A stretch of 58,428 bases of DNA from Xanthobacteraceae bacterium. GTDB lineage: Bacteria; Pseudomonadota; Alphaproteobacteria; Rhizobiales; Xanthobacteraceae. Every line of letters starts with the position of its first letter. Positions within the stretch are counted from its first letter, which is position 1. Positions 46,669-58,428 of this stretch are shown here, in pieces. Both the position numbers and the translations under genes were made by a program. The notes under the pieces were generated by a model that saw nothing but the letters and a program-made list of their open reading frames with translations, did not search any database and was not told the DNA's origin. Location: contig JASHPU010000182.1 in NCBI GenBank assembly GCA_030037885.1, positions 1-58,428 on the forward strand. The letters run 5' to 3'.

Positions 46669-46717
46669 AAGTGTCGCGTGACACTTTGCAAACCGAAAAG
46701 TGCTTCGCGACACTTTA
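46669..46717. promoter_or_regulatory. Two palindromes AAGTGTC-GCGT-GACACTT and relative
   Basis: A perfect 7-bp inverted repeat (46669-46686) is followed within 12 nt by a second, imperfect one (AAAGTG ... CACTTT, up to 46717) of the same sequence type. They lie upstream of the decarboxylase gene and could be a regulator binding site or a repeat. The rest of the 46445-46818 gap holds no gene that I can support. Confidence 0.4.
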
Positions 46718-46818
46718 GTGATCGCATGCGATCGCGGGCTGAGCTAAAAATCACCAGTTGTCCCGCGTGCCCCCGCGTCGTTGATCAGACGCATTCCCCG
46801 ATCCGTGAGTGCGCAGCT

Positions 46819-48039
46819 GTGACAAAGTTCTGCGCCGCCGCCGAGTCGCTTTCCTCAAGCCGCCGACGCATCGACGCGCTGCTTGCTCGCAAGCTCAACG
46901 CCTTCAACGTCGCGCGGAGAAATCATCTCGGTTATCCGTACAACCTCGACTTTGCGGTCGACGGCATCGGCCAATTTGCCGGATTTCTGGTCAACAACCT
47001 CGGCGACCCCTATGTGGGATCGCGCTATGCGACCGAAGCCTGCGATCTCGAGCGCGAAGTGGTGGCTTGGTTCACCGAACTGTGGGACTGTCCAAGGCCC
47101 GATGATTTTTGGGGCGCGGTGGTCGCAAGCGGCACCGAGGGCAACATTTGGGCCTTGTATCTGGCGCGCGAGACGCATCCCACTGGTATTCTGCTCTATA
47201 GCCAGCACTCCCATTATTCGATTCCGAAGGCCGCGCGCATTTTGCGTATGGAAGCCGCGTGCGTGGAGTGCGAGCCGAACGGCGAGCTGTCGCTGGCGGC
47301 GTTTGCTCGTGCGGCAGCGCAGCACCACGGCCGTCCAATCATTGCGGCGCTCAATTGCGGGACCACTTTCAAAGGAGCCCATGACGATATCGCGGCGGCA
47401 TTGTCCGTTCTCGATCGCTCCGGTCACGGCCGTAATCGTCGCTTCGTCCATATCGACGGCGCTCTCAACGCCATGGTCCTGCCGTTCGACGCGACGGCGC
47501 CGCTCTCGATAAAGCCGTCATTGCGGCTCGCCATCGACAGCATTTCGGTATCGGGACACAAAATGGTCGGCACGCCGATGCCCTGCGGCGTGCTGGTCGC
47601 GCTGCGCAACCACGTGCGGCGGATTGCGTCTTCGATCAGCTATCTCGGCACCTGCGATTCGACGCTGATGGGTTCGCGAAACGGGCATGCGGTGCTGGCG
47701 CTCTGGCATCGCATCAACACACACGGCTGGAAAGGCTATGCCGATGACGTCGCGGCTTGTCTTGAACGCGCGCGCAAACTGCACGACGTCCTGGCCGCCG
47801 AAGCGGTTCCGGTGCTGCGCAACCGGCATGCCATCACCGTGGTGTTTCCGGAGCCGCACCAGCGCATCGTCGCCAAGTATCAGCTCGCATGCCATGAAAA
47901 GCTGGCGCACGCGATTGTCATGCCGAACGTCACCGCTCGTCTGATCGAGAGGTTCGCGGCAGATTACATCGCGTGGTGGCGGTCCGGCCCGCCGCCAGCG
48001 CCGTGCGGCGGCCCGACCGCGGAGGCCGTCACCCCATGA
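46819..48039 (+). CDS. Histidine-decarboxylase-like group II PLP decarboxylase
   Basis: The product is about 406 residues. The PLP lysine lies in SVSGHKMVGTPMPCGVL, which is close to the signature of PLP-dependent histidine decarboxylases (including siderophore enzymes that make histamine) and plant-type serine decarboxylases. LNCGTTFKGAHDD and HIDGALNAMVLPF provide the cofactor aspartate and neighbouring loops, and GYPYNLDF matches the family N-terminus. Substrate is therefore histidine, serine or a relative. The start is uncertain: GTG at 46819 fits the family length, ATG at 46726 or 46678 is possible. It heads the rightward biosynthetic block and overlaps the next gene by four bases. Confidence 0.8.
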   Translation: MTKFCAAAESLSSSRRRIDALLARKLNAFNVARRNHLGYPYNLDFAVDGIGQFAGFLVNNLGDPYVGSRYATEACDLEREVVAWFTELWDCPRPDDFWGAVVASGTEGNIWALYLARETHPTGILLYSQHSHYSIPKAARILRMEAACVECEPNGELSLAAFARAAAQHHGRPIIAALNCGTTFKGAHDDIAAALSVLDRSGHGRNRRFVHIDGALNAMVLPFDATAPLSIKPSLRLAIDSISVSGHKMVGTPMPCGVLVALRNHVRRIASSISYLGTCDSTLMGSRNGHAVLALWHRINTHGWKGYADDVAACLERARKLHDVLAAEAVPVLRNRHAITVVFPEPHQRIVAKYQLACHEKLAHAIVMPNVTARLIERFAADYIAWWRSGPPPAPCGGPTAEAVTP

Positions 48040-49091
48040 TCGGCATCCCGGCACCGGCCAGATTTGGCCGTCATCCCTTCGCAAAAGACATCGTCGAGGA
48101 GATCAGGCGGTTGCGGCCGGATAATTGGCACGCGGTTCTCTATCTGCTCAAGGACTATGCCGTCATTTTCGGCTTCGCGTATCTGACCGTGGCGATGAGC
48201 TGGTGGCTCTACCCCTTGAGCGTTCTCATGATCGGAGCGCACCAGCGCGGATTGTCGACGCTGTTGCACGATTCGGCGCACGGCGTGCTGACGCGCAATC
48301 GTGCGCTGAACTTTCTCCTGGGAACGCTGCCGACTGCATGGCCGATCTTGCAGCGGCATTTTGCCTACCGCGAATCGCACGTGCTGACGCACCATCCCTA
48401 TCTCGGTCGCGCCGACCGCGACCCCGACCTCGAGTTCTTCATTACCGAAGGTGTCTTCACACCCAGGTCGGATCCGGCCTTTTTGCTGCACGTCGTCGTT
48501 TTGCCGATGCTGGGCTCGAAGACCTGGGCCTATCTGAAATATCTGGTGCGCAATCGCTATCAAATGCTGCTGGAGCAGTTCGGCGCGCGGCCGACCCGGC
48601 GAACGGATTGGCTATATCGGTTCGACAGCTGGGGTTTTTGCTTTTTCTGGCTCGCGGTAACCGGCGCCGGCGCCACGCTCGGCGTCGGCTGGTACCTCAT
48701 CGCGTTCTGGCTGGTACCGTATATCACGTCATTCCACATCCTGGGCTGGTTCATCGAAATGTCCGAGCACTGCAGCGCGACGGAACAGCGCTCGGTCAAC
48801 CTGGTGATGGCAAGGAACCGTCGCAGCCGTCACCTCGAAAAGTGGCTGACCGGGATCAACAACGACGATTTTCATTTGGATCATCATCTCGACCCGGCGA
48901 CGCCGTTCTGGCTGCTGCCGCAGGCGCACCGGATACGTCTGCGCGACTGCGTCTACGCCGACCACTGCCGGGAGACCGGCGGTCTATTCCAAGGCGCCGC
49001 CGACGGCGCGCCCTCGATCATCGCGCTGATGCGAACGCAAAACCGTGTTCGGTACCAGGCGCAGTTCGCCAGCCAAACGGGCGTCGGCTGA
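48036..49091 (+). CDS. Membrane fatty-acid-desaturase-type diiron oxygenase
   Basis: The 351-residue protein has the three histidine boxes of the membrane desaturase/hydroxylase family in order: HDSAH (78-82), HVLTHH (115-120) and HLDHH (280-284). Two pairs of membrane helices lie around residues 40-70 and 195-240. Such enzymes use a diiron centre and O2 to desaturate or hydroxylate lipids, amines or other CH groups. Its ATG overlaps the decarboxylase stop, so a shared pathway is likely, for example oxidation of an amine or acyl product. The substrate is not predictable. Confidence 0.85.
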   Translation: MIGIPAPARFGRHPFAKDIVEEIRRLRPDNWHAVLYLLKDYAVIFGFAYLTVAMSWWLYPLSVLMIGAHQRGLSTLLHDSAHGVLTRNRALNFLLGTLPTAWPILQRHFAYRESHVLTHHPYLGRADRDPDLEFFITEGVFTPRSDPAFLLHVVVLPMLGSKTWAYLKYLVRNRYQMLLEQFGARPTRRTDWLYRFDSWGFCFFWLAVTGAGATLGVGWYLIAFWLVPYITSFHILGWFIEMSEHCSATEQRSVNLVMARNRRSRHLEKWLTGINNDDFHLDHHLDPATPFWLLPQAHRIRLRDCVYADHCRETGGLFQGAADGAPSIIALMRTQNRVRYQAQFASQTGVG

Positions 49092-49115
49092 AGCCGCGAA
49101 TGGGGAGATTGTCCA

Positions 49116-50444
49116 ATGCTGGATAAGACGGCCTCCGCGGCGACCCGCCCAGGGCTCCACGTCGACACCATGCTGCTGCACGCCGGATTTCGCTGGGATC
49201 CTTCGACCTTCGCCACGACCGTCCCGATTTTCCTGTCCAATGCCTACGCCTTTGCGTCGATCGAGAACGCGTCCGACGTTTTCGATCTACGACAAATGGG
49301 GCGCACCTATTCGCGTCTGATGAATCCCACGACCGACGTCTTCGAGGAGAGAATGGCGGCCCTGGAAGGCGGAATTGCCGCGGTTGCCACCGCTTCGGGA
49401 CAGGCCGCAATCGCGATGTCGATATTGAACATCGCCGCAGCCGGCGACAACATCGTGAGCTCGGACCATCTGTACGGCGGCACCATCAATCTGCTCGCGA
49501 CCACTTTCCGCCGGCTCGGCATCGAGACCCGGTTCGTCCAGCCCGACAGGATCGCGGACTTCGCTGCCGCAACGGACGAGCGCACGCGCTGCTATTTCGG
49601 CGAGGCGCTGGCCAACCCGCGGCTGACGCCGTTCCCGATCCGGGCGGTGTCGGAACTGGCGCGTCGGCTCGGGCTGCCGCTCATCATCGACAACACCACG
49701 AGCCCCTACATCTCGCGACCGTTCGCGCTCGGTGCCGACCTCATCGTGCACTCGACGTCGAAATATATATGCGGCCACGGCACCACCATCGGCGGCGTCG
49801 TCATCGATGGCGGCAAATTCGATTGGCGCAAACATCATGCGCGGGTTCCGCTGCTCACGCGACCAGACGAAGCGCATGGCAACATCCAATGGCTGGACGC
49901 GGCCGACCGTCTCGGCGTCGGCTATGGCAAGAGCCCCTTTCTGCTCAAGCTGCGCAATACCTTGATGCGGGATTTTGGGCCATGCCCATCGCCGTTCTCG
50001 TCGTTCCTGTTGCTGCAGGGGCTCGAGACGCTGCCGCTGCGGATGGAACGGCACTGCCGGAATGCCGCGACGCTGGCGCGAATGCTGTCGCGGCATCCGC
50101 GGGTCGCCGAGGTGACGTACCCGTCTCTGGCGTCCAGCCGCGTCCGCGCTCAGGCCAAGGAGAATATGGGCGCCCATGGCGGGCCGCTGCTGCAGTTCGA
50201 ACTGCGCGGCGGGCTGCGGTCGGGACGGCGGCTGATGGAAAAATTGCAGCTCGCTTATCATGTCGCGAACATCGGCGATGCGCGGACGCTCGTCACCCAT
50301 CCGGCCTCGACCACGCATGCTTCCGTGCCGGCGCAGGCGCGCGCCGCCGCCGGTGTGCGCGACGGCACTATCCGCGTCTCCGTCGGCATCGAGCACATCG
50401 ACGACATCCTCAACGACTTCAAACAGGCGTTGGCGCATGTCTGA
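49116..50444 (+). CDS. Cys/Met-metabolism PLP enzyme, O-acetylhomoserine sulfhydrylase-like
   Basis: The 442-residue fold-type I enzyme has GRTYSRLMNPTTDVFEERMAALEGG, the SGQAAI segment, the PLP aspartate in IIDNTTSPY (Asp192) and the PLP lysine in VHSTSKYICGHG (Lys216). It ends HASVPAQARAAAGVRDGTIRVSVGIEHIDD in family style. Members catalyse gamma-replacement (O-acetylhomoserine plus a nucleophile) or gamma-elimination. In natural-product clusters such enzymes build gamma-substituted amino acids, which would fit here. GGGGAG precedes the start, 24 nt after the desaturase gene. Confidence 0.88.
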   Translation: MLDKTASAATRPGLHVDTMLLHAGFRWDPSTFATTVPIFLSNAYAFASIENASDVFDLRQMGRTYSRLMNPTTDVFEERMAALEGGIAAVATASGQAAIAMSILNIAAAGDNIVSSDHLYGGTINLLATTFRRLGIETRFVQPDRIADFAAATDERTRCYFGEALANPRLTPFPIRAVSELARRLGLPLIIDNTTSPYISRPFALGADLIVHSTSKYICGHGTTIGGVVIDGGKFDWRKHHARVPLLTRPDEAHGNIQWLDAADRLGVGYGKSPFLLKLRNTLMRDFGPCPSPFSSFLLLQGLETLPLRMERHCRNAATLARMLSRHPRVAEVTYPSLASSRVRAQAKENMGAHGGPLLQFELRGGLRSGRRLMEKLQLAYHVANIGDARTLVTHPASTTHASVPAQARAAAGVRDGTIRVSVGIEHIDDILNDFKQALAHV

Positions 50445-50529
50445 AAAGCAGAGGCGGCCAATGGGCGGCGCTGCCGCCGCCGCCGGCCACTTTCCCGGAA
50501 GGCGGCAAGGAGCATGACGTGAGCCGGAC

Positions 50530-51951
50530 ATGTTAAGCAGAACCGTCGAGCCGTTTTCGGCGAGCAGCTCCCGCTCCGTTGCCGCTGCCCAACCGCGTTG
50601 CGCGAACGTCAAGGAGTTGCACCATTATCTCAAGGAAACCGATTGCCCTTACGTCAAGATCGCCGTCACCGACCTGGATGGCGTCTTGAGGGGCAAATAC
50701 CTGGCCAAGCGCAAGTTTTTGACCGCTTTGGAGGAAGGCATCGCGTTCTGCGACGTGGTTCTGGGCTGGGATTGCAACGACCAGCTCTACGACAATGCGC
50801 GGGCGACCGGCTGGCATACCGGCTATCCCGACCGCCGCCTGCGCATCGTCGCCGACAGCCTGCGGATCCTTCCATTTGAAAACAACATGCCGTTTGTTTT
50901 GTGCGAATTTGCCGGAGGCGTGGCCGATCTATGCCCGCGACGGCTGCTCGGCAGGACGCTCGAACGGCTGGACGCGCTGGGCTTTCGCGCTTTTGCCGGC
51001 GTCGAATACGAGTTCTTTCTGTTCGACGAAACTCCGGAGTCGGTCCGCGCCAAGGGTTATCGCAACTTGCAAACCCTTACGCCCGGGTATTTCGGCTACT
51101 CGGTGCTCCGCTCGTCCGTGCATGCCGAGCTCTACGCCGAACTTCTCGATTACTGCGAACAGATGGCGATGCCGCTCGAAGGGCTGCATACGGAGACCGG
51201 ACCGGGAGTGATCGAGGCGGCGATGGCGTACGATACGGCGTTGCGCGCGGCCGACAACGCGGCGTTGTTCAAGACGTTCACCAAGGTATTCGCCCAGCGC
51301 CGCAACCTCATGGCGTGCTTCATGGCCAAGTGGTCGGAGCGCTGGCCCGGGCAAAGCGGTCACCTGCACATTTCGCTCCGCTCGCACGACGGCAAGCACG
51401 TTTTTCACGACGACACGGCGCCGCATTCGATCAGCACCTGCATGCGCCATTTCATCGGCGGCATGCAGAAGCTCTTGCCCGAACTGACCTGCATGGCGGC
51501 GCCGACGATCAACGCCTATTCGCGGCTGATACCGGGTTATTGGGCGCCGACCAGGGCGTCCTGGGGAATTGAAAACCGCACGGTGGCGCTGCGCGCCATC
51601 ATCGGACAGCACTCCGCGCAGCGCGTCGAGTACCGGCTCGCCGGCGCCGACGCCAATCCATACCTGGCGCTCAGCGCGGCACTGGCGAGCGGCGCATGGG
51701 GCATCGAGAACAAAATTGAACCGACCGCCCCCACCGCCGGAAACGATTACCAGGCAGGCGGTGAGGCCATCGAAACCGTGCCGAGCACGTTGTTCGATGC
51801 CGCACGGCGGTTTGCGAAATCAACAACCGCCAAGGAACTGTTCGGCGAGACGTTCGTGGAGCATTACGCCGCCACGCGCGAGTGGGAGGCGAGGGAATTC
51901 CAGAAACACGTGACCGACTGGGAATTGCAGCGCTACTTCGAGATCATCTGA
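50530..51951 (+). CDS. Glutamine-synthetase-like amide ligase (PuuA/GMAS type)
   Basis: The 473-residue protein has the glutamine synthetase catalytic fold: GVEYEFFLF (metal glutamates, 159-165), HTETGPGVIEAAM (Glu222 and Glu229), SGHLHISL (metal histidine region, 277-283) and NRTVALRAI, followed by YRLAGADANPYLALSAALASG. It is closer to gamma-glutamylpolyamine or gamma-glutamylmethylamide ligases than to housekeeping GlnA. It probably joins a carboxylate, such as glutamate, to an amine using ATP; the decarboxylase product is a candidate amine. It lies 41 nt before the abnormal tRNA. Confidence 0.85.
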   Translation: MLSRTVEPFSASSSRSVAAAQPRCANVKELHHYLKETDCPYVKIAVTDLDGVLRGKYLAKRKFLTALEEGIAFCDVVLGWDCNDQLYDNARATGWHTGYPDRRLRIVADSLRILPFENNMPFVLCEFAGGVADLCPRRLLGRTLERLDALGFRAFAGVEYEFFLFDETPESVRAKGYRNLQTLTPGYFGYSVLRSSVHAELYAELLDYCEQMAMPLEGLHTETGPGVIEAAMAYDTALRAADNAALFKTFTKVFAQRRNLMACFMAKWSERWPGQSGHLHISLRSHDGKHVFHDDTAPHSISTCMRHFIGGMQKLLPELTCMAAPTINAYSRLIPGYWAPTRASWGIENRTVALRAIIGQHSAQRVEYRLAGADANPYLALSAALASGAWGIENKIEPTAPTAGNDYQAGGEAIETVPSTLFDAARRFAKSTTAKELFGETFVEHYAATREWEAREFQKHVTDWELQRYFEII

Positions 51952-51992: not shown

Positions 51993-52180
51993 GCATCTGT
52001 AGCTTAACCGGCAACCGGGAGGTGCGAGCGCCCTTTTTAGAAGGCTTGGCGATGGTGCGCGATTGTCAGGGCATCGTCGTGATGCCGGAGCCAAGATGGA
52101 CGATTTGGGCCGGTCATTTCCCCGAGAGCGCCAGTTTTGGGAACTGGAAGATGCGGGTTCGAATCCCGTCAGATGCGCCA
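51993..52180 (+). tRNA. Hybrid tRNA: Arg-type acceptor, UGG anticodon, D-loop insertion
   Basis: The acceptor stem GCATCTG (51993-51999) pairs perfectly with CAGATGC (52170-52176), followed by G73 and an encoded CCA. T52000-A52001 occupy positions 8-9. The D-stem is GCTT (52002-52005) with GAGC (52126-52129), then G26. The anticodon arm is CCAGT / TTTGGGA / ACTGG (52131-52147), reading UGG with U33 and G37. The variable loop is AAGAT, and the T-arm GCGGG-TTCGAAT-CCCGT is canonical. The D-loop begins normally (AACCGGCA) but 112 nt (about 52014-52125) are inserted near position 20; without them the tRNA is exactly 76 nt. The acceptor resembles tRNA-Arg, not tRNA-Pro (which has C1-G72 and A73). 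The insert folds by hand into a closing helix 52016-52019/52121-52124, a helix 52045-52050/52090-52095 and hairpins at 52051-52067 and 52070-52086. Confidence 0.88.
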
Positions 52181-52268
52181 CTTTTCGGTTTCCGCCGACC
52201 CGGCCGCAGTGCCGGGGACGGCCGGAAGCGGGCGGCACACGCCCGAACGTCAGCGCGACCCGCGCAGG

Positions 52269-52279
52269 AAAGGAGGTGA
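52269..52279 (+). promoter_or_regulatory. Very strong Shine-Dalgarno sequence
   Basis: AAAGGAGGTGA matches the complement of the 16S rRNA 3' end over 11 bases. GGAGG ends 5 nt before the ATG at 52282 and 8 nt before the one at 52285. It fixes the start of the small ORF and predicts high translation. Confidence 0.9.
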
Positions 52280-52281
52280 AA

Positions 52282-52560
52282 ATGATGGCAGAACCCGTGC
52301 ATGCCGAACTGTTGGAGTCGCTTTCTCCAACGGTCGAAAGTCTCGCCGAGGCTTCTACGCCACTGGTGCCAGGGATTCCACAAATCCCCGGCATTCCAGC
52401 GGCGGTGTCGGCGCCAGTGGCGACAGCCGTCCCAGTGCCAGAGGACGACATCCCACTGGCTACCCCACTGAGCCCAGCCTCGGAGCCAGTCGCCGAAACT
52501 CTTCCAGAGGTTTCGGCGGTGTTCGCGGAATTGCCAGCCGCTCCAATCGAGCCAGGCTAG
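52282..52560 (+). CDS. CCA-codon-rich small peptide, probable recoding target
   Basis: The ORF has 92 codons, starting MMAEPVHAELLESLS and ending ELPAAPIEPG under standard translation. It is rich in Pro, Ala, Val, Glu, with no Cys, Lys, Arg, Trp or Tyr. Of 18 proline codons, 16 are CCA (codons 16, 27, 30, 33, 39, 45, 51, 53, 58, 62, 65, 69, 75, 85, 88, 91), two are CCC (5, 36), and none is CCG or CCT. In the adjacent synthetase gene I count 14 CCG, 3 CCT, 2 CCC and no CCA. Other codons in the ORF look like the host. The UGG tRNA just upstream reads CCA, so these positions may carry something other than proline. I know no homologue. The frame is open upstream to 52063, through the tRNA; the ribosome-binding site decides this start. 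Confidence 0.85.
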   Translation: MMAEPVHAELLESLSPTVESLAEASTPLVPGIPQIPGIPAAVSAPVATAVPVPEDDIPLATPLSPASEPVAETLPEVSAVFAELPAAPIEPG

Positions 52561-52587
52561 CGATGTCGATCGCGACACATTGGCGAT

Positions 52588-52639
52588 GATGCCCTGATGA
52601 GATGCCCTGATGCGATGCCCTGACCAGATGCCCTGTACG
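52588..52639. repeat. Four 13-nt tandem units with Met-Pro-stop minigenes
   Basis: Units start at 52588, 52601, 52614 and 52627 and share GATGCCCTG. In the first three, ATG CCC TGA forms a complete start-Pro-stop reading frame. The 52561-52731 gap between the small ORF and the synthetase gene contains this repeat and the hairpin listed next, but no other gene. Confidence 0.75.
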
Positions 52640-52650
52640 ACGATTACCGG

Positions 52651-52681
52651 CGGCTGCCGGTCGGTTCGCCGACCGCAGCCG
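52651..52681 (+). promoter_or_regulatory. Stable hairpin with UUCG loop between peptide and synthetase
   Basis: CGGTCGG-TTCG-CCGACCG gives seven pairs. After one bulged C the stem continues with CGGCTG paired to CAGCCG for six more. No U-tract follows, so it is more likely an attenuator, processing site or mRNA stabiliser for the small ORF than a simple terminator. It ends 50 nt before the synthetase start. Confidence 0.65.
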
Positions 52682-52731
52682 TCTGGTTGTTCGGCCGCGC
52701 CGCGCGGTCGCTTGTTTGATGGACGGCCGCA

Positions 52732-54447
52732 ATGGCGATGACCATCGCGGACATGCTCGAACGCACCACCGACGCGTTTGCCGCCGCCGGTCAGCCGGTC
52801 CGGCTCGAATACCGCAACGCGCGCACGACCAAATGGGACGTGAAAGTCATTTCGAACTCTTCGCAGGCGTTGCTGCAGCTGGCCGGCCGCGTTCCGGAGA
52901 GCAAGATGGTCAAGCGCGTGTCCGTCAAAGGTAACAGCGCATTTGTCGAGTTCAACGACGATTATGTGATGCAGGAGGTCCATCGGCGGCTCGCCGGGTT
53001 GCCGATCGGCGGCAGCTGGTTCCGCGGCAAGCGCATCGTCGTGCAATTCATCGATCCGAACAGCACCAAGGCGCTGCATCTCGGGCATCTTTACGAAGCA
53101 ATCCTCGGCAATGCGCTGGCGGCCCTGCTCGAAGGTCGCGGCGCCGCGGTGCGGCGCACCTGTTTCGTCAGCGACGTCAGTCGAAGCGTCTGCGAAGCGA
53201 TGGCGGGTTACGAAAAATTCGGCGGCGAGGCGACGCCGCAAGAGCGTCATGAAAAGGCGGACCATATGGTCGGGCGCGTGTACGCGCAGTACGCTGCGGC
53301 GTACTACAAGCAGCACCCGGCTGAACTCGATAACGAGGATCCGACGCGCCGCGAAACGGCGCTGGTGGGCGACGAGGCCGACGATTACGTGCGACGCTAT
53401 CAAGCCGGCGACCGCGCGACGCGCGACCTTTGGCTTCGCATCCGCAATTGGGTGCTCGAGGGTCAGATGGCGACGCTGGAGCGGCTTGGCGTTCGGCTGG
53501 ACACGGTACAATACGGCTCCGACACCGACGACATCATTGCCAAGCTGCTTGACAACGGCTTGCAACGCGGTGTGCTGCAACGCGAGCCGTCCGGCGCGAT
53601 CGTCTACCACAGCGGCAAGGAGGAATATAAGACCGTCGTGATGACGCGGCCCGACGGCTTCCCGACCGAGCACGCACGCCAGATGGCGCAGATGATCAGC
53701 GTTCAAGCCGTCTGCGCGACCGAGGTCGACCGCTATTACACGCTCATGGGCATGGAGTGGAAGCCGGCGTGGCAGCTCTATGAAAACATCCTGCGCGGCT
53801 GCGGCGATGGCGACAGCCCTTACCACGACATCGTGGCGCCGGTATGCCACGGCATGGTGATGGTGGAAGGTTCGAAGATGAAGTCCAGCCTCGGCGCCGT
53901 CGTGCTTGCCGATGAATTCATCGATCGCGTCGAAGCGCTGCGCGAAATCCAAGCGCTGTCCGCCGCGACCGACGGTCGGGTGGCGGTCTCCGCAATCGCC
54001 GACGTCGTGGTGAAATCGTTCTTTTTGTCTCGCCGCATGAACAAGGATTTGGGCTTTTCCTGGAACCAGGTGACGAGCGCGGCCGACAATCCCGGCTGGG
54101 AGATCGCCACCGCGTGGTGTGCCGTCAATTCCGCCCCTGGCGCCGAGGTCGCCCGGCCGCCTCCGCTGGATTTCGACGTGGTCAGAACGCTGCTTTTCAA
54201 AGGTTTTGATCTCGAACGCGCGTTCAATTTCGCGGCAAGCGAGATCGATTTGTCGTTGGCGGTAAAGGCTCTCGTCCGGTTCGCAGTTCTCGTCAACGGC
54301 GCCGTCCGAGGCCAAAGCCACGGGCTTGCGATCGAGCTATCGCGCAGCATTCTTCACCACGGCATGGCGTCGCTCGGCATCGCCTGCGACGGGCCGGCGG
54401 CAGCCGCCAAGGTTGCGGCATCGACCGCCGCGGAAGCCGCGTCCTGA
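52732..54447 (+). CDS. Arginyl-tRNA synthetase paralogue with altered substrate motif
   Basis: The 571-residue class I synthetase aligns with ArgRS throughout: VVQFIDPNSTKALHLGHLY with HLGH (116-119), FVSDVSRSV after it, the catalytic insertion with HGMVMVEGSKMKSSLGAVV (KMSKS variant KMKSS, 382-386), FFLSRRMNKDLGFSW and a DALR-like helical C-terminus ending HHGMASLGI. The N-terminal 90 residues correspond to the ArgRS domain that contacts the tRNA D-loop. The usual DG-x-x-TYxxxDIA motif, whose Tyr and Asp hold the arginine side chain as I recall the structures, reads DGFPTEHARQMA (308-319) here, so both contacts are replaced (Glu, Gln). This suggests a different amino acid. It has no CCA codons among 19 proline codons. 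The start ATG is at 52732. Confidence 0.85.
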   Translation: MAMTIADMLERTTDAFAAAGQPVRLEYRNARTTKWDVKVISNSSQALLQLAGRVPESKMVKRVSVKGNSAFVEFNDDYVMQEVHRRLAGLPIGGSWFRGKRIVVQFIDPNSTKALHLGHLYEAILGNALAALLEGRGAAVRRTCFVSDVSRSVCEAMAGYEKFGGEATPQERHEKADHMVGRVYAQYAAAYYKQHPAELDNEDPTRRETALVGDEADDYVRRYQAGDRATRDLWLRIRNWVLEGQMATLERLGVRLDTVQYGSDTDDIIAKLLDNGLQRGVLQREPSGAIVYHSGKEEYKTVVMTRPDGFPTEHARQMAQMISVQAVCATEVDRYYTLMGMEWKPAWQLYENILRGCGDGDSPYHDIVAPVCHGMVMVEGSKMKSSLGAVVLADEFIDRVEALREIQALSAATDGRVAVSAIADVVVKSFFLSRRMNKDLGFSWNQVTSAADNPGWEIATAWCAVNSAPGAEVARPPPLDFDVVRTLLFKGFDLERAFNFAASEIDLSLAVKALVRFAVLVNGAVRGQSHGLAIELSRSILHHGMASLGIACDGPAAAAKVAASTAAEAAS

Positions 54448-54536: not shown

Positions 54537-55457
54537 TTATTCGCATTCGAGGACGCCTCGCATCACCGGCGCGCATTCGCCGCCGATCGCGATTCGCTCG
54601 ACGACGCCGTGACGCTTTATTGTGCCGACGGCAATGGCGCTGGGGCGTCCCATCTCGATACCCTGCTCGATGCGAACGTTGTGCTCGCCATCGGGCGCGG
54701 ACGGCATAGCGGCTAGAAGCGCCGCCAACGCGCCGGCCGCGCTGCCCGTGGCCGGATCCTCCATGATGTTGCTCAGCGGCGCGAACATGCGCGCGCGCAA
54801 GCGGTTGGGCTCGCTGCCGGTGCGCGCGTACAAGAACAGCGAAAACCGACTGTCGCCTACCGGATGGCGCTTATCGGCTTCGGCAAAACACGCCAGATCC
54901 GGCTTGGCGCGCGCCAGCGCGGCCGGCGAGGCGACCTCCGCCATTGCGACCGGCAGCCCGATCGAGGCCAGGACCGGTGCATGCGCACCGACGGCGATCT
55001 GGCTTTTCGGCAGCGTCGCGCAATCGGCTACCAGTTTTGGGTCGACATCGCCGAGCACTTGCAGCCGCTGCGGCGCATCGAATTGCGCTCCGACGAGCGC
55101 ATCACCGTCATAAATCGGCTGCGCCGTCACCGGCCCGCCGTCCTCTTCGAATATGATTGGAGTCCGGACCGGCCGCCCGAAGATTTGGCCGATCCGCGCC
55201 ACGGCGTAGGCGGTGCCGACGTTCGGATGTCCGGCAAACGGAATCTCCTCCGTCGGGGTGAAGATGCGAATCCGCGCCGTATGTTCGGCCACGCTGGCCG
55301 GAAGCAGAAAAACCGTCTCCGAATAGTTGAATTCCCGGGCAATCTGCTGCATCAGCGCCGCGTCAAGCCGGCCGGCGTCGAGAATGATGGCCAATTGATT
55401 GCCACGCAACGGAGAGCGCGTGAAAACGTCGACGGTCACGAACTCAACTGTGATCAT
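54537..55457 (-). CDS. PhzF-family isomerase/epimerase
   Basis: The 306-residue protein starts MITVEFVTVDVFTRSPLRGNQLAI, the PhzF fold signature, with the catalytic glutamate in NYSETVFLLP (near residue 45), FAGHPNVGTAYAVA and the late ENPxTGSAAGALAAL-like EDPATGSAAGALAALLA. Family members isomerise or epimerise small hydrophobic or aromatic metabolites and occur in phenazine and other biosynthetic clusters. GGAGAGCAGGG precedes the start. The gene is convergent with the synthetase gene. Confidence 0.88.
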   Translation of the reverse strand: MITVEFVTVDVFTRSPLRGNQLAIILDAGRLDAALMQQIAREFNYSETVFLLPASVAEHTARIRIFTPTEEIPFAGHPNVGTAYAVARIGQIFGRPVRTPIIFEEDGGPVTAQPIYDGDALVGAQFDAPQRLQVLGDVDPKLVADCATLPKSQIAVGAHAPVLASIGLPVAMAEVASPAALARAKPDLACFAEADKRHPVGDSRFSLFLYARTGSEPNRLRARMFAPLSNIMEDPATGSAAGALAALLAAMPSAPDGEHNVRIEQGIEMGRPSAIAVGTIKRHGVVERIAIGGECAPVMRGVLECE

Positions 55458-55820
55458 CCCTGCTCTCCGTAACGAACCTGGGCGCGCGGCGCGCGCTTTT
55501 GCCATGACCCTTCAGGCGGCGTGCGCGGTGCGCACCGGCGGCCCCCCAGAATCTCCAACTCAGTCGTAACCGTCCGGGAATTGCTTCACAATGAGATATC
55601 CGTCTGGGATAGGCCGCTGAAATCATTGAAGTCGATTCCCATAGACGCTGCGCCGGCTTTCATTGCGCAGCATTTTCCGCCGTTCAAGTTGCTCCGACCT
55701 CGAGGCTGTGGTTGCTCATCACGATCCCAGACGTGACCATTTTTGCTAACCCCGACCGATTGCTCGCCGGATCGAACAAGTTTCCGCTCGCCTTGCCGGC
55801 CGCCAGCAGCGCCACGGCCG
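55458..55820. other. Gap without a supported gene
   Basis: Short frames exist on both strands but none has a family signature or a good ribosome-binding site. One minus-strand 25-codon frame just upstream of 55586 (MKAGAASMGIDFNDFSGL...) is a weak peptide candidate. No repeat or terminator is clear. Confidence 0.4.
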
Positions 55821-57005
55821 TTAATGGCGCCGATTGCGGGTTGCTGGAAAATGACTGAGACCAGCCAGTCGATCTCGCGCTTGCGCCATTGTTCCTTTCG
55901 ACTTTGAGAAAGTGAATCGAAGTTTGTACCTCCCAATACCCTCGTCAGAATAAAACGCCGGCCAAGGCACCGCAGCGACGCCCACTTCCTTCATCAAGAA
56001 ATCGCAAAACGCGACCGAATCTTCGAACTGAAAGTTCGACATGTCAGCCAGCACATAGTATGCCCCCTGCGGCCGCCTGCAAATAAACCCAGCCTCCTCC
56101 AGCAAGGACACGAGGGCATCCCTCTTGCTTTGATAATGCTCAGTCAGCCAGTGGTAATACCTTTGATCGAATCCAAGGGCGGTAACGGCAGCGTCTTGAA
56201 GCGGCGTCGCGGCAGCAAGTGATAGGAAATCATGACAGCGGCGAATGGCCGCCGTGAGATCCGGAGGAGCAGCGGCGTAGCCGATTCTCCAACCGGTCAT
56301 GAAATAGGTCTTTGAGCAACTCGATACGACAATCCAATTGCTGCCAAACTGCTTGATGGATGCCAGACATACGTGGCGGCATCCATCAAAAACCATGTGC
56401 TCGTATACTTCATCCGAAATAGCAATTGCATTGTGTTTTTGGCAGAGACGGGCGATTACTTCGAGTTCAGAACTGTCAAACACCTTCCCGCTTGGGTTGT
56501 TCGGATTATTGACAATTATGGCTGCCGTACGATCGCTAAACGCATCGACCAGTCTGCTTTCGTCTATTTTAAGCGATTCGGGATGCAGCGGCACAAAGAC
56601 CGGCTTGGCTCGTGCGATCAGGACCTGCGCTCGGAAATTTTCGTAGGATGGCTCGAAAATGATTACTTCATCACCGGGCTCCAGTACCGCAAGCAAGCTG
56701 GCCATCATTGCCTCGGTAGCGCCGCAAGTGACTGTCACATTCTGTCGGCCGTCTAGCTGAAGACCGTAAAATCGGTTTAACTTTTCCGCTACTGCTTGCC
56801 GAAGAGCATCCGCTCCCCAGGTATCGGAATATTGATTCCAATTGTTTGAAATAGCTTCAATGGCAGCTTGTTTCAGTTCCGACGGTGTCTCGTCGTCCGG
56901 AGTACCTTGCGCGAGGTTGCAAGCTCGGTACTGGCGACTCCAAACGGTAGAGCGACGAATCACCGATTCGGTAAATTGTTGCGATAACGCACTAGGCCTT
57001 TTCAT
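55821..57005 (-). CDS. Class I/II PLP aminotransferase
   Basis: The 394-residue protein has LAQGTPDDETP near the start, TCGATEAMMASLLAVLEPGDEV, NNPNNPSGKVF, ISDEVYEHMVFDG and the PLP lysine in VVSSCSKTYFMTGWRIGYAAAP (near residue 233). This is the aspartate / kynurenine / aromatic aminotransferase clade, with the late FCDFLMKEVGVAAVPWPAFY substrate region and arginine in KLRFTF. It has lower GC content than the core genes. Together with the thioesterase and NRPS it probably supplies a building block for a peptide product. Confidence 0.88.
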   Translation of the reverse strand: MKRPSALSQQFTESVIRRSTVWSRQYRACNLAQGTPDDETPSELKQAAIEAISNNWNQYSDTWGADALRQAVAEKLNRFYGLQLDGRQNVTVTCGATEAMMASLLAVLEPGDEVIIFEPSYENFRAQVLIARAKPVFVPLHPESLKIDESRLVDAFSDRTAAIIVNNPNNPSGKVFDSSELEVIARLCQKHNAIAISDEVYEHMVFDGCRHVCLASIKQFGSNWIVVSSCSKTYFMTGWRIGYAAAPPDLTAAIRRCHDFLSLAAATPLQDAAVTALGFDQRYYHWLTEHYQSKRDALVSLLEEAGFICRRPQGAYYVLADMSNFQFEDSVAFCDFLMKEVGVAAVPWPAFYSDEGIGRYKLRFTFSKSKGTMAQARDRLAGLSHFPATRNRRH

Positions 57006-57089: not shown

Positions 57090-57920
57090 TTATTCTACCG
57101 GGTTGGACAGAATGTCCACCACCGTGCCTTGCAGCTTCCCGGTTTGGTCGCGAAGGAAGAAATGGTCGCCGTCAATGCTGCGTAACGCGAATCGCGCAGT
57201 GGTTTGTTTCTGCCACGCGCCCAGATCAACCTGTGACACGGACCGGTCGCGCGAGCCGCCGAGAGCCGCTATTGGGCAGGTCAGCGGCCTTTCCTCCTCG
57301 TAATCGTAGTTTGCGCATAACGCGAAGTCGGCTCTCAGCCCCAGAATCACGAGATCTCGTAATTCCCGATTCATGATCAGCAGGCCGGCATCACGCTTAT
57401 CGTGCAACTGCAAAATGAGTTCGCGATCCGAGATGGCATCGACTTTCAGATTGCTCGTCGGCCGCTGCGGAGCCGGCTGCGCCGCCACGATGAGACGATC
57501 CGGATGGCGACCTCCGCGCCGGCGCAACTCTCGCACCAGTTCAAACCCCAGCAGCGCCCCCATACTATGTCCATAGACGGCATAACGCTCGCCGAAAACC
57601 GTATTCAGATTGTCCACCAGCGCGCAGACGAGCGGACGTATCGCGGTGTACGGCCTTTCAAGCACGCGTGGACCGCGGCCCGGCAGCTGCACCGCAATTG
57701 TTTCAATCCAATCCGGCAAGCGCGAGGCCCAGTGTCGATAGGCGATGGCGCTGCCGCCGGCAAACGGCAAGCAGACAAGCCGCAAACGCGCTTGTGGTCG
57801 AGGCTCGAAGCGCATGGCCCAGTGCGCGCTCTGCGAATGCGGGCCAGCGGTGCTGTGGATCGTGACCGCCGTCAGGGCGTTTGGTTCATGGAGATAGTCG
57901 GCCGGGTCACTCGTTTTCAT
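57090..57920 (-). CDS. Type II thioesterase, NRPS-associated
   Basis: The 276-residue alpha/beta hydrolase has LRLVCLPFAGGSAIAYRHWASRLP, QLPGRGPRVLERPY, the nucleophile motif YGHSMGALLGFEL (Ser near residue 122), a catalytic aspartate region in AALGGSRDRSVS and the histidine in SIDGDHFFLRDQ. Such stand-alone thioesterases remove misloaded acyl groups from carrier domains of NRPS or PKS lines. It is divergent from the NRPS gene across 143 nt that probably hold both promoters, and follows the same direction as the aminotransferase 84 nt downstream. Confidence 0.92.
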   Translation of the reverse strand: MKTSDPADYLHEPNALTAVTIHSTAGPHSQSAHWAMRFEPRPQARLRLVCLPFAGGSAIAYRHWASRLPDWIETIAVQLPGRGPRVLERPYTAIRPLVCALVDNLNTVFGERYAVYGHSMGALLGFELVRELRRRGGRHPDRLIVAAQPAPQRPTSNLKVDAISDRELILQLHDKRDAGLLIMNRELRDLVILGLRADFALCANYDYEEERPLTCPIAALGGSRDRSVSQVDLGAWQKQTTARFALRSIDGDHFFLRDQTGKLQGTVVDILSNPVE

Positions 57921-58063
57921 TGGATATCAAGCTACGAACGAAAGCATGTCGTGTCAAACAATTTGATAGTGGGCCGACCCTTCACCGGCAATGTCGTCAC
58001 TTTGTGATTGCAAACAACAATGGCGCTAACTTAATCTCTCGATATTGTGGAGAGGGGACCATC

Positions 58064-58428
58064 ATGGGCCGGTATTACAGCGAAGGCGTCAGCCCTGAAC
58101 AGGGATTCGTGACGGGCGACCTCTCAGAATCCGCGTCCCGGATTGGGCGATCGGCGACGCCGGTTTCTCTCCCTCCTTTATCGTATGGGCAGGAGCGGCT
58201 GTGGTTTTTGGAGCAACTGCATCCTGGGGGCTCGGGTTACAGCATACCGCACGCGATCCGGCTGGCTGGGCATCTGGATGTAGCGGCGCTTGAGCGCAGC
58301 CTCGATGAGGTTCGCCGCCGACATGAGGTATTGCGGACGACGTTTGCGGTTTCCGGTGGCAGGCCCGTACAGGTGGTTTCGCCGCATTGGCAGGTGGCGC
58401 TTGAGCCGGTGGACCTCGGCGGATATGG
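58064..58428 (+). CDS. Non-ribosomal peptide synthetase, N-terminal condensation domain (partial)
   Basis: An open frame from ATG at 58064 runs to the window end. GGAGAGGGGACC lies just upstream. After about 35 residues the condensation domain begins: LPPLSYGQERLWFLEQLHPG (C1 motif), YSIPHAIRLAGHLDVAALE and RRHEVLRTTFAVSGGRPVQVV (C2 region). The C3 HHxxxDG motif and later domains lie beyond the window. A starter condensation domain suggests either lipo-initiation or a partner module elsewhere. Confidence 0.9.
   Translation, partial: MGRYYSEGVSPEQGFVTGDLSESASRIGRSATPVSLPPLSYGQERLWFLEQLHPGGSGYSIPHAIRLAGHLDVAALERSLDEVRRRHEVLRTTFAVSGGRPVQVVSPHWQVALEPVDLGGY

Follow-up and report, generated by a model that had tools for sequence, protein, structure and literature searches.

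In a 58,428-nucleotide stretch of DNA from a Xanthobacteraceae bacterium (contig JASHPU010000182.1 of assembly GCA_030037885.1; the whole stretch is called the window below), a 2.5-kb module on the plus strand carries, in this order, the gene of a hybrid tRNA, a small open reading frame (ORF) and the gene of a paralogue of arginyl-tRNA synthetase (ArgRS), with four enzyme genes (46678-51951, same strand) directly upstream. We consider it likely, with a probability of about 0.72, that this module is a dedicated sense-codon system by which a residue other than proline, probably a non-standard one, enters a single peptide, encoded in the module, at its CCA codons. This reading rests on the recurrence of the module in two distant lineages, on conservation of the CCA codon in one of them, on a tRNA acceptor unlike that of tRNA-Pro and on a full-length ArgRS fold, seen in a predicted model, with changed arginine-contact positions. 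The tRNA, the CCA-rich ORF and the ArgRS paralogue each lie where a preliminary description of this DNA had placed them, and the features of the module are the following:

51993-52180, plus strand: hybrid tRNA gene, 188 nt including the encoded CCA, recognized from its sequence, its cloverleaf, five copies in the Stappia family and the host tRNAs.
52006-52125, plus strand: 120-nt D-loop insert, sharing the words AAGGCyTGGCGA and CAGGGCATCGTC with the Stappia-family copies; it is also 120 nt long in the copy of genome G433.
52138-52140, plus strand: anticodon TGG (UGG), the predicted reader of CCA, in a loop that is the same at the five Stappia-family loci; it is also implied by the metagenomic protein P0073.
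52270-52279, plus strand: Shine-Dalgarno sequence AAGGAGGTGA, with AAAGGAGGTGA at the five Stappia-family loci.
52282-52560, plus strand: CCA-written ORF of 92 aa, with CCA for 16 of 18 proline codons and three metagenomic relatives at 68-71%.
52588-52635, plus strand: 13-bp tandem repeat GATGCCCTGATGA in 3.7 copies, separating the CCA ORF from the synthetase gene.
52732-54447, plus strand: ArgRS-fold paralogue, the predicted charger of the hybrid tRNA, assigned from PF00750, the argS score, a fold model and a tree.

The distribution of the module was determined from proteins and from genomes. A protein search, in which the 7995 candidates sharing most words were scored, gave 71 matches; two of these, P0070 and P0071, have the Pfam domains of canonical ArgRS, so that the family comprises at least 69 proteins; this is a lower bound because only those candidates were scored. 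The few named members listed come from metagenome-assembled genomes or species of Bacteroidetes, Acidobacteriota, Planctomycetes, Engelhardtia and Conexibacter. When species genomes were scanned with a profile, a member with DNA came to light in Stappia sp. MMSF_3263 (locus L002), which scored 394 bits against at most 276 for the rest, among the 80 of 383 relatives kept. Of 87 Stappia-family genomes, five have the ArgRS-like gene, encoding proteins 32-36% identical to that of the window, and a tRNA pattern search of the same 87 genomes was positive in exactly those five. At each of the five loci the ArgRS-like gene is adjoined by a tRNA with a TTTGGGA loop and by an ORF with 14-15 CCA codons behind AAAGGAGGTGA, and the synthetase gene is convergent with this ORF. 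The preliminary description had proposed examining homologous loci for co-occurrence of the three elements, and all five further ArgRS-like loci with DNA indeed have both the tRNA type and the CCA-written ORF. Relatives having the ORF without CCA bias or without the tRNA, named there as evidence to the contrary, were found at none of the five.

A scan of genome contigs with the window protein alone revealed no relative. An alignment and profile, A1, were made from 48 of the 71 matched proteins plus the window protein. The profile detected only the window's own genome among its relatives (1 of 61, E 1e-40), its order (1 of 397, E 1e-70) and its phylum (1 of 398, E 1e-70), only G433 itself in the class of G433 (1 of 385), and none in the phylum of the Chitinophagaceae genome (0 of 395, E 1e-85), a set without a positive control; the searches of 397, 398, 395 and 385 genomes scored three candidates per genome, so that misses are possible. 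The plasmid collection held four records at 26-27% identity, two of them annotated argS, and the viral contigs gave two weak profile matches (E 5e-8 and 4e-6). Another 13 viral-contig matches, to the tRNA pattern, proved on reading to be ordinary tRNAs or unrelated DNA and were discarded.

The proposal of a dedicated ORF with 16 of 18 proline codons written CCA behind a Shine-Dalgarno sequence agrees with both the codon counts and the position of AAGGAGGTGA. The other two proline codons are CCC, with no CCG or CCT, and CCA accounts for only 24 of 205 proline codons in nine neighbouring window genes (binomial p 1.5e-13). The CCA triplets of the ORF are confined to its reading frame (16, 0 and 0). 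A similar pattern was observed in the Stappia-family genome G433, where 15 of 17 proline codons of the ORF are CCA compared to 8 of 249 in ten neighbouring genes; the Stappia-family set of neighbouring genes omits the HAD hydrolase of G519 and G521, mtnA of G513 and the ArgRS-like gene of G519. In a cruder scan, at least seven CCA in ten consecutive proline codons were found in 29 of 1236 stop-to-stop frames, six of which are the module ORFs. Ten of ten was reached by the window ORF only and nine by three other frames; we presume the remaining CCA-rich frames to be non-coding.

The encoded peptides have 15-26 residues free of CCA followed by 14-16 CCA residues spaced 2-13 apart, a layout that looks like that of a precursor of ribosomally synthesized and post-translationally modified peptides (RiPPs). 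The peptide of Stappia sp. MMSF_3263 is 113 aa long, with 15 residues written CCA. Two Stappia-type relatives, P0080 (136 aa) and P0082 (97 aa), differ in the number of proline-type units and retain the C-terminal VPAAHPLA...AVPAR. In the window the ORF lies upstream of the synthetase gene on the same strand, with the tandem repeat between them, an arrangement that would suit a sensor or attenuator leader gauging the charging of the hybrid tRNA and controlling the synthetase gene downstream. Since the two genes are convergent in the Stappia-family loci, and since peptides of 97-136 aa with conserved ends exceed the needs of a leader, we regard this role as very improbable.

Conservation at the codon level was analyzed in an alignment of the five Stappia-family ORFs, which come from related genomes. 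Fourteen columns are CCA in all five and none of the 14 varies, whereas elsewhere synonymous variation was found in 24 of 70 single-residue columns and 15 of 38 four-fold columns (Fisher p 0.008 and 0.005, respectively). The three non-CCA proline columns (CCC or CCG) each stand right after a CCA column; two of them have Ser, Ala or Leu in some genomes and the third is within an indel. These results indicate that in the Stappia family the CCA codon itself is conserved, beyond the residue proline, and that the codon is under selection in the target protein. In a local alignment of seven peptides, to 52% identity, 10 of 15 CCA columns were invariant compared to 28 of 98 others.

The hybrid tRNA has the features of an elongator tRNA, namely acceptor, anticodon and T arms and a CCA end. 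Its acceptor stem GCATCTG/CAGATGC forms 7 bp without mismatch, with G as discriminator and CCA encoded; the anticodon arm is CCAGT-TTTGGGA-ACTGG, with anticodon TGG, and the T arm, GCGGG-TTCGAAT-CCCGT, is standard. ARAGORN reported no tRNA in the window and the Rfam tRNA model gave the window copy 24.4 bits, below the cut-off of 29, because the D-loop is occupied by 120 nt. This insert had escaped the preliminary description, and its length and part of its sequence are common to both lineages. G433 gave a partial Rfam tRNA match at the 3' part of the tRNA, barely over the cut-off (29.5 bits), and the insert matched no Rfam family at cut-off. An intron was provisionally set aside, 120 nt with a common core being unlike group I or II introns. 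All six copies (window and five Stappia-family) are 188 nt long, and between the two lineages there is one compensatory change in the acceptor stem and one in the anticodon stem. In this comparison of two lineages, 56 pairs are predicted and 6 show double changes, including two within the cloverleaf, so that any structure of the insert is provisional. The region folds with a mildly low, unexceptional energy (z -1.86; 9 of 200 shuffles equally good). Such an energy, the scores below the ARAGORN and Rfam thresholds and an amino acid that cannot be named would fit three chance neighbours, i.e. a decayed tRNA, an accident of codon bias and an unrelated ArgRS paralogue. This was already very unlikely given the same three elements, 188-nt length and anticodon in an independent lineage, and with codon biases of p 1.5e-13 and 5e-21 we give it next to no weight.

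The identity of the acceptor was compared with that of host tRNAs (81 matches, one tRNA from each of 67 loci compared). C1-G72 and A73 are found in all six host tRNA-Pro (each host has UGG, CGG and GGG), whereas the hybrid tRNAs have G1-C72 and G73 and thus neither the acceptor pair nor the discriminator of tRNA-Pro. By its sequence the acceptor is firmly unlike that of tRNA-Pro, and by the usual identity rules prolyl-tRNA synthetase would not be expected to charge it. The preliminary description had called the acceptor Arg-type, which holds in part: G1-C72, G73 (found in 9 of 10 host tRNA-Arg) and the best whole-length match of both hybrid copies, the tRNA-Arg(CCG) of G433 (tied for the Stappia copy), agree with it, but the acceptor letters alone favour tRNA-His in the window copy. 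By its 15 acceptor letters the Stappia copy is tied (8) among Arg, Gly, His and Thr.

These data bear on a simpler explanation, in which CCA means ordinary proline, the bias slows or tunes the synthesis of a proline-rich peptide, the hybrid is an extra or pausing tRNA and the ArgRS-like protein has an unrelated role. The peptides do read sensibly as Pro/Ala/Val-rich chains, and tRNA-Pro(UGG) is available in both hosts. However, a pause alone needs no synthetase, and this explanation does not account for a hybrid tRNA lacking the acceptor pair and discriminator of tRNA-Pro, for CCA codons that stay while CCC and CCG prolines change, or for the tRNA, the CCA ORF and the altered ArgRS standing together in two distant lineages. 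We therefore judge it unlikely.

Protein records point to a third locus. P0073, which is of metagenomic origin and related to the window peptide, starts MGIGRCGFESRQMRQF, and the 3' half of the window tRNA translates in one frame as LGTGRCGFESRQMRHF. The start codon (NTG) and the Gly codon (GGN) of P0073 fix tRNA positions 34-36 as TGG, the remaining N-terminal letters fit the T arm and the acceptor end, and RAGKEVN before the peptide fits a Shine-Dalgarno sequence. P0074 starts MRQ, fitting the acceptor end, and contains AGKEVNK. These records suggest that a third locus reads through the same tRNA 3' half, with a UGG anticodon.

PF00750 is the only Pfam match of the window paralogue; the DALR anticodon domain (PF05746) and PF03485 were undetected by sequence, and the argS NCBIfam score of 125.1 bits (cut-off 261.65) places it below canonical arginine--tRNA ligase. 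On the other hand, its AlphaFold2 model (pLDDT 90.9) matched the ArgRS fold over the full length, the top 14 rows being ArgRS chains, and in this model the N- and C-terminal domains of ArgRS are present though invisible to Pfam. The earlier claim of changed substrate-contact residues was borne out, since Q105, E313 and Q317 align with E148, Y347 and D351, the arginine-contact residues of the yeast enzyme. P311, T312, R316 and E342 are the same in all 49 aligned rows; the Stappia-family proteins, which are outside the alignment, have A for P311. Residues 105/108/313 vary from one subclade to another (window clade Q, D, E; Stappia D, D, E; others G-G-E, N-N-E, S-G-E, D-D-T and N-D-Q), suggesting that the subclades may have different substrates. 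Arginine as the inserted residue was rejected, as the contact positions are changed and CGN codons would serve. A quick tree, built without P0048 and with L098-L101 entered by their last 580 residues, separated the family, with full branch support, from nine canonical rows. Canonical ArgRS is also encoded in G433, G516 and G519 (325-339 bits to argS), and in the incomplete genome of the window a 117-aa frame matching the last 57 argS positions (39.9 bits) hints at a canonical copy. P0048 (925 aa) combines the family synthetase and a class I/II aminotransferase domain (PF00155) in one fused chain. This domain was rejected as a homologue of the local aminotransferases, with 31% over 81 residues to one and no match to the other two.

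The enzyme genes upstream in the window, regarded as a putative amino-acid supply, are:

46678-48039, plus strand: pyridoxal-phosphate (PLP) decarboxylase, histidine-decarboxylase-like, first of the run, assigned by family searches.
47973-49091, plus strand: fatty-acid-desaturase-type protein, like the arginine gamma-hydroxylase GntB, start uncertain (297 of 380 bits, below cut-off).
49116-50444, plus strand: Cys/Met-metabolism PLP enzyme, the closest solved sequences being FUB7 and O-acetylhomoserine sulfhydrylases.
50530-51951, plus strand: glutamine-synthetase-like ligase, assigned by family searches.

In the Stappia family the linked genes encode an aminotransferase, a HAD hydrolase, a saccharopine-dehydrogenase-like protein and a methyltransferase, with counterparts at the same place in all five genomes. 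Searched for in the 87 genomes, the saccharopine-dehydrogenase-like protein was found in the same five at 71% or more, while G469 and G485 have remote homologues (36-38%). In these two genomes the aminotransferase, dehydrogenase-like and HAD genes lie together without a methyltransferase match, and in G485 beside transporter genes. As a separate cluster, these three genes, related at 34-38% to the Stappia module, occupy L179 6879-10420 and L180 9816-13405, the latter followed by EamA-like and peptide-type ABC transporter genes. The gene directly upstream of the Stappia synthetase is mtnA (methylthioribose-1-phosphate isomerase; L002 8429-9532), with counterparts in the other four genomes.

That the upstream enzymes could make the amino acid, as had been suggested, is plausible in so far as enzymes adjoin both kinds of locus; the suggestion is weakened by the lack of any match between the two sets, meaning that the two amino acids differ or that some enzymes are bystanders. 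GntB makes gamma-hydroxyarginine for enduracididine (PMC10367076). From this chemistry an arginine-derived residue is one guess. The other is a cyclic, pipecolate-like residue, presumably made via a FUB7-type step. As no linked enzyme matches between the loci, the amino acid is left unnamed here. The window aminotransferase at 55821-57005 did not qualify as a GntC cyclase (269 bits, cut-off 415; best matches to ordinary aminotransferases). Anti-phage defence was likewise rejected (one methyltransferase match among 7 proteins checked). The window also contains a PhzF-family gene (54537-55505) and a thioesterase gene (57090-57920, minus strand). The latter is adjoined by an ORF at 57881-58428, running off the 3' end of the window, which by its translation we take to be the start of a condensation domain of a non-ribosomal peptide synthetase (NRPS). 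The module may lie beside or within a larger biosynthetic cluster, given the NRPS-like ORF, thioesterase and PhzF-family neighbours.

In such a biosynthetic setting the charged hybrid tRNA could instead feed a non-ribosomal step, through a PEARL-type ligase or another enzyme that depends on aminoacyl-tRNA, and the CCA peptide would then be its substrate or a scaffold. Enzymes of this kind exist (PMC11962472; review PMC12945691), and PEARLs act on ribosomal peptides; biosynthetic enzymes are also nearby. We nevertheless find this improbable: it leaves the match of CCA to UGG and the synonymous conservation of CCA unexplained, and no PEARL-like (lantibiotic-dehydratase-like) or other aminoacyl transferase domain was detected among the ten window and ten Stappia ORFs scanned, which partly cover the flanks.

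Under the sense-codon reading, the ArgRS-derived synthetase and the UGG hybrid tRNA would be partners, the synthetase loading the tRNA with a non-proline, probably non-standard amino acid, perhaps supplied by the linked enzymes, and the ribosome inserting it at the CCA codons of the co-encoded peptide. Canonical ArgRS contacts the D-loop of its tRNA through the N-terminal domain. The 120-nt D-loop may be a recognition or maturation element and could help to keep the hybrid apart. Ordinary CCA codons would have to be spared through low expression, restricted timing or competition by the host tRNA-Pro(UGG), or else tolerate the residue where they are rare, as near the G433 locus.

Several observations weigh against this reading. 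Specificity is the hard part: both hosts retain an ordinary tRNA-Pro(UGG), a competitor that also reads CCA, and CCA is used in nearby genes, at 11.7% of proline codons in the window and 3.2% in G433. A lasting sense-codon reassignment is expected to mis-make the proteome (review PMC11467909). The ribosome would have to tolerate a 120-nt D-loop, and the charging, the expression and the recoded peptide are all predictions from sequence. Judged by the 15 acceptor letters on their own, the window copy is closer to tRNA-His (9) than to tRNA-Arg(CCG) (7). Among window-type peptides the CCA columns were not significantly more conserved than others (13 of 16 compared to 45 of 76, p 0.15), and one window proline written CCC (residue 36) is likewise invariant among relatives. 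No linked enzyme matches between the window and the Stappia-family loci at E 1e-4, and G469 and G485 have homologues of three of the four Stappia enzymes without the tRNA and synthetase. Finally, the five Stappia-family genomes are related and represent one tight co-occurrence, not five independent events, and the DNA comparison spans only two lineages, in a family that numbers at least 69 proteins.

Titles and abstract openings in a non-exhaustive set of literature on such systems, on tRNA D-loop inserts and on the enzyme chemistry, without preprints and with few subscription papers, describe no such sense-codon system. Pyrrolysine is encoded by the stop codon UAG and uses PylRS (PMC11467909). 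The module resembles that system in the linkage of a synthetase gene to a tRNA gene (seen in the window and, among the 87 Stappia-family genomes, in the same five), presumably partners, with possible biosynthesis enzymes nearby. It differs in the sense codon CCA (anticodon UGG), in an enzyme of the class I ArgRS fold instead of a class II enzyme of the PylRS type, in a tRNA with a 120-nt D-loop and in one private peptide instead of methyltransferases. Selenocysteine, according to PMC7609411, relies on a specialized tRNA with an unusual D-arm and on UGA, SECIS and SelB. The specialized tRNA with an unusual D-arm is shared, but the codon here is not a stop. To our knowledge selenocysteine has no dedicated selenocysteinyl-tRNA synthetase. 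In yeast CUG reassignment a hybrid tRNA-Ser(CAG), with the body of one identity and the anticodon of another, inserts a standard amino acid genome-wide and is charged by a housekeeping synthetase. The module shares this mix of body and anticodon, but the ordinary tRNA-Pro(UGG) is kept and the synthetase is predicted to be dedicated.

The paralogue resembles canonical bacterial ArgRS in the full-length fold of its model and the PF00750 catalytic domain, and differs in the absence of DALR and N-terminal Pfam matches, an argS score below cut-off, changed contact positions and invariant residues of its own. MshC and similar ligases are class I synthetase paralogues with new substrates. MshC is among the fold matches of the paralogue, which unlike it keeps the N- and C-terminal ArgRS domains in the model and adjoins its own tRNA gene. 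PEARLs add residues to a peptide C terminus without a template (PMC11962472). With these and other aminoacyl-tRNA-dependent enzymes the module would share a small peptide, an aminoacyl-tRNA and a biosynthetic setting, while here codon choice tracks the anticodon.

A broader proposal, which we advance tentatively and put somewhat short of an even chance, is that the whole family consists of natural orthogonal systems, in which subclades with their own pocket signatures would each use their own non-standard amino acid, with giant structured D-loop tRNAs reading CCA in a private precursor while CCA means proline elsewhere. Use of a sense codon would be important, since both known natural additions to the code, selenocysteine and pyrrolysine, are written with stop codons. 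If the sense-codon reading is true, one sense codon would have two meanings in one cell, and a bacterium would use a sense codon for a new amino acid with no need to rewrite its genome, a problem with which synthetic biology has struggled. The module would then add one more naturally encoded amino acid to selenocysteine and pyrrolysine, define a new class of ribosomal peptides and supply a ready synthetase-tRNA pair.

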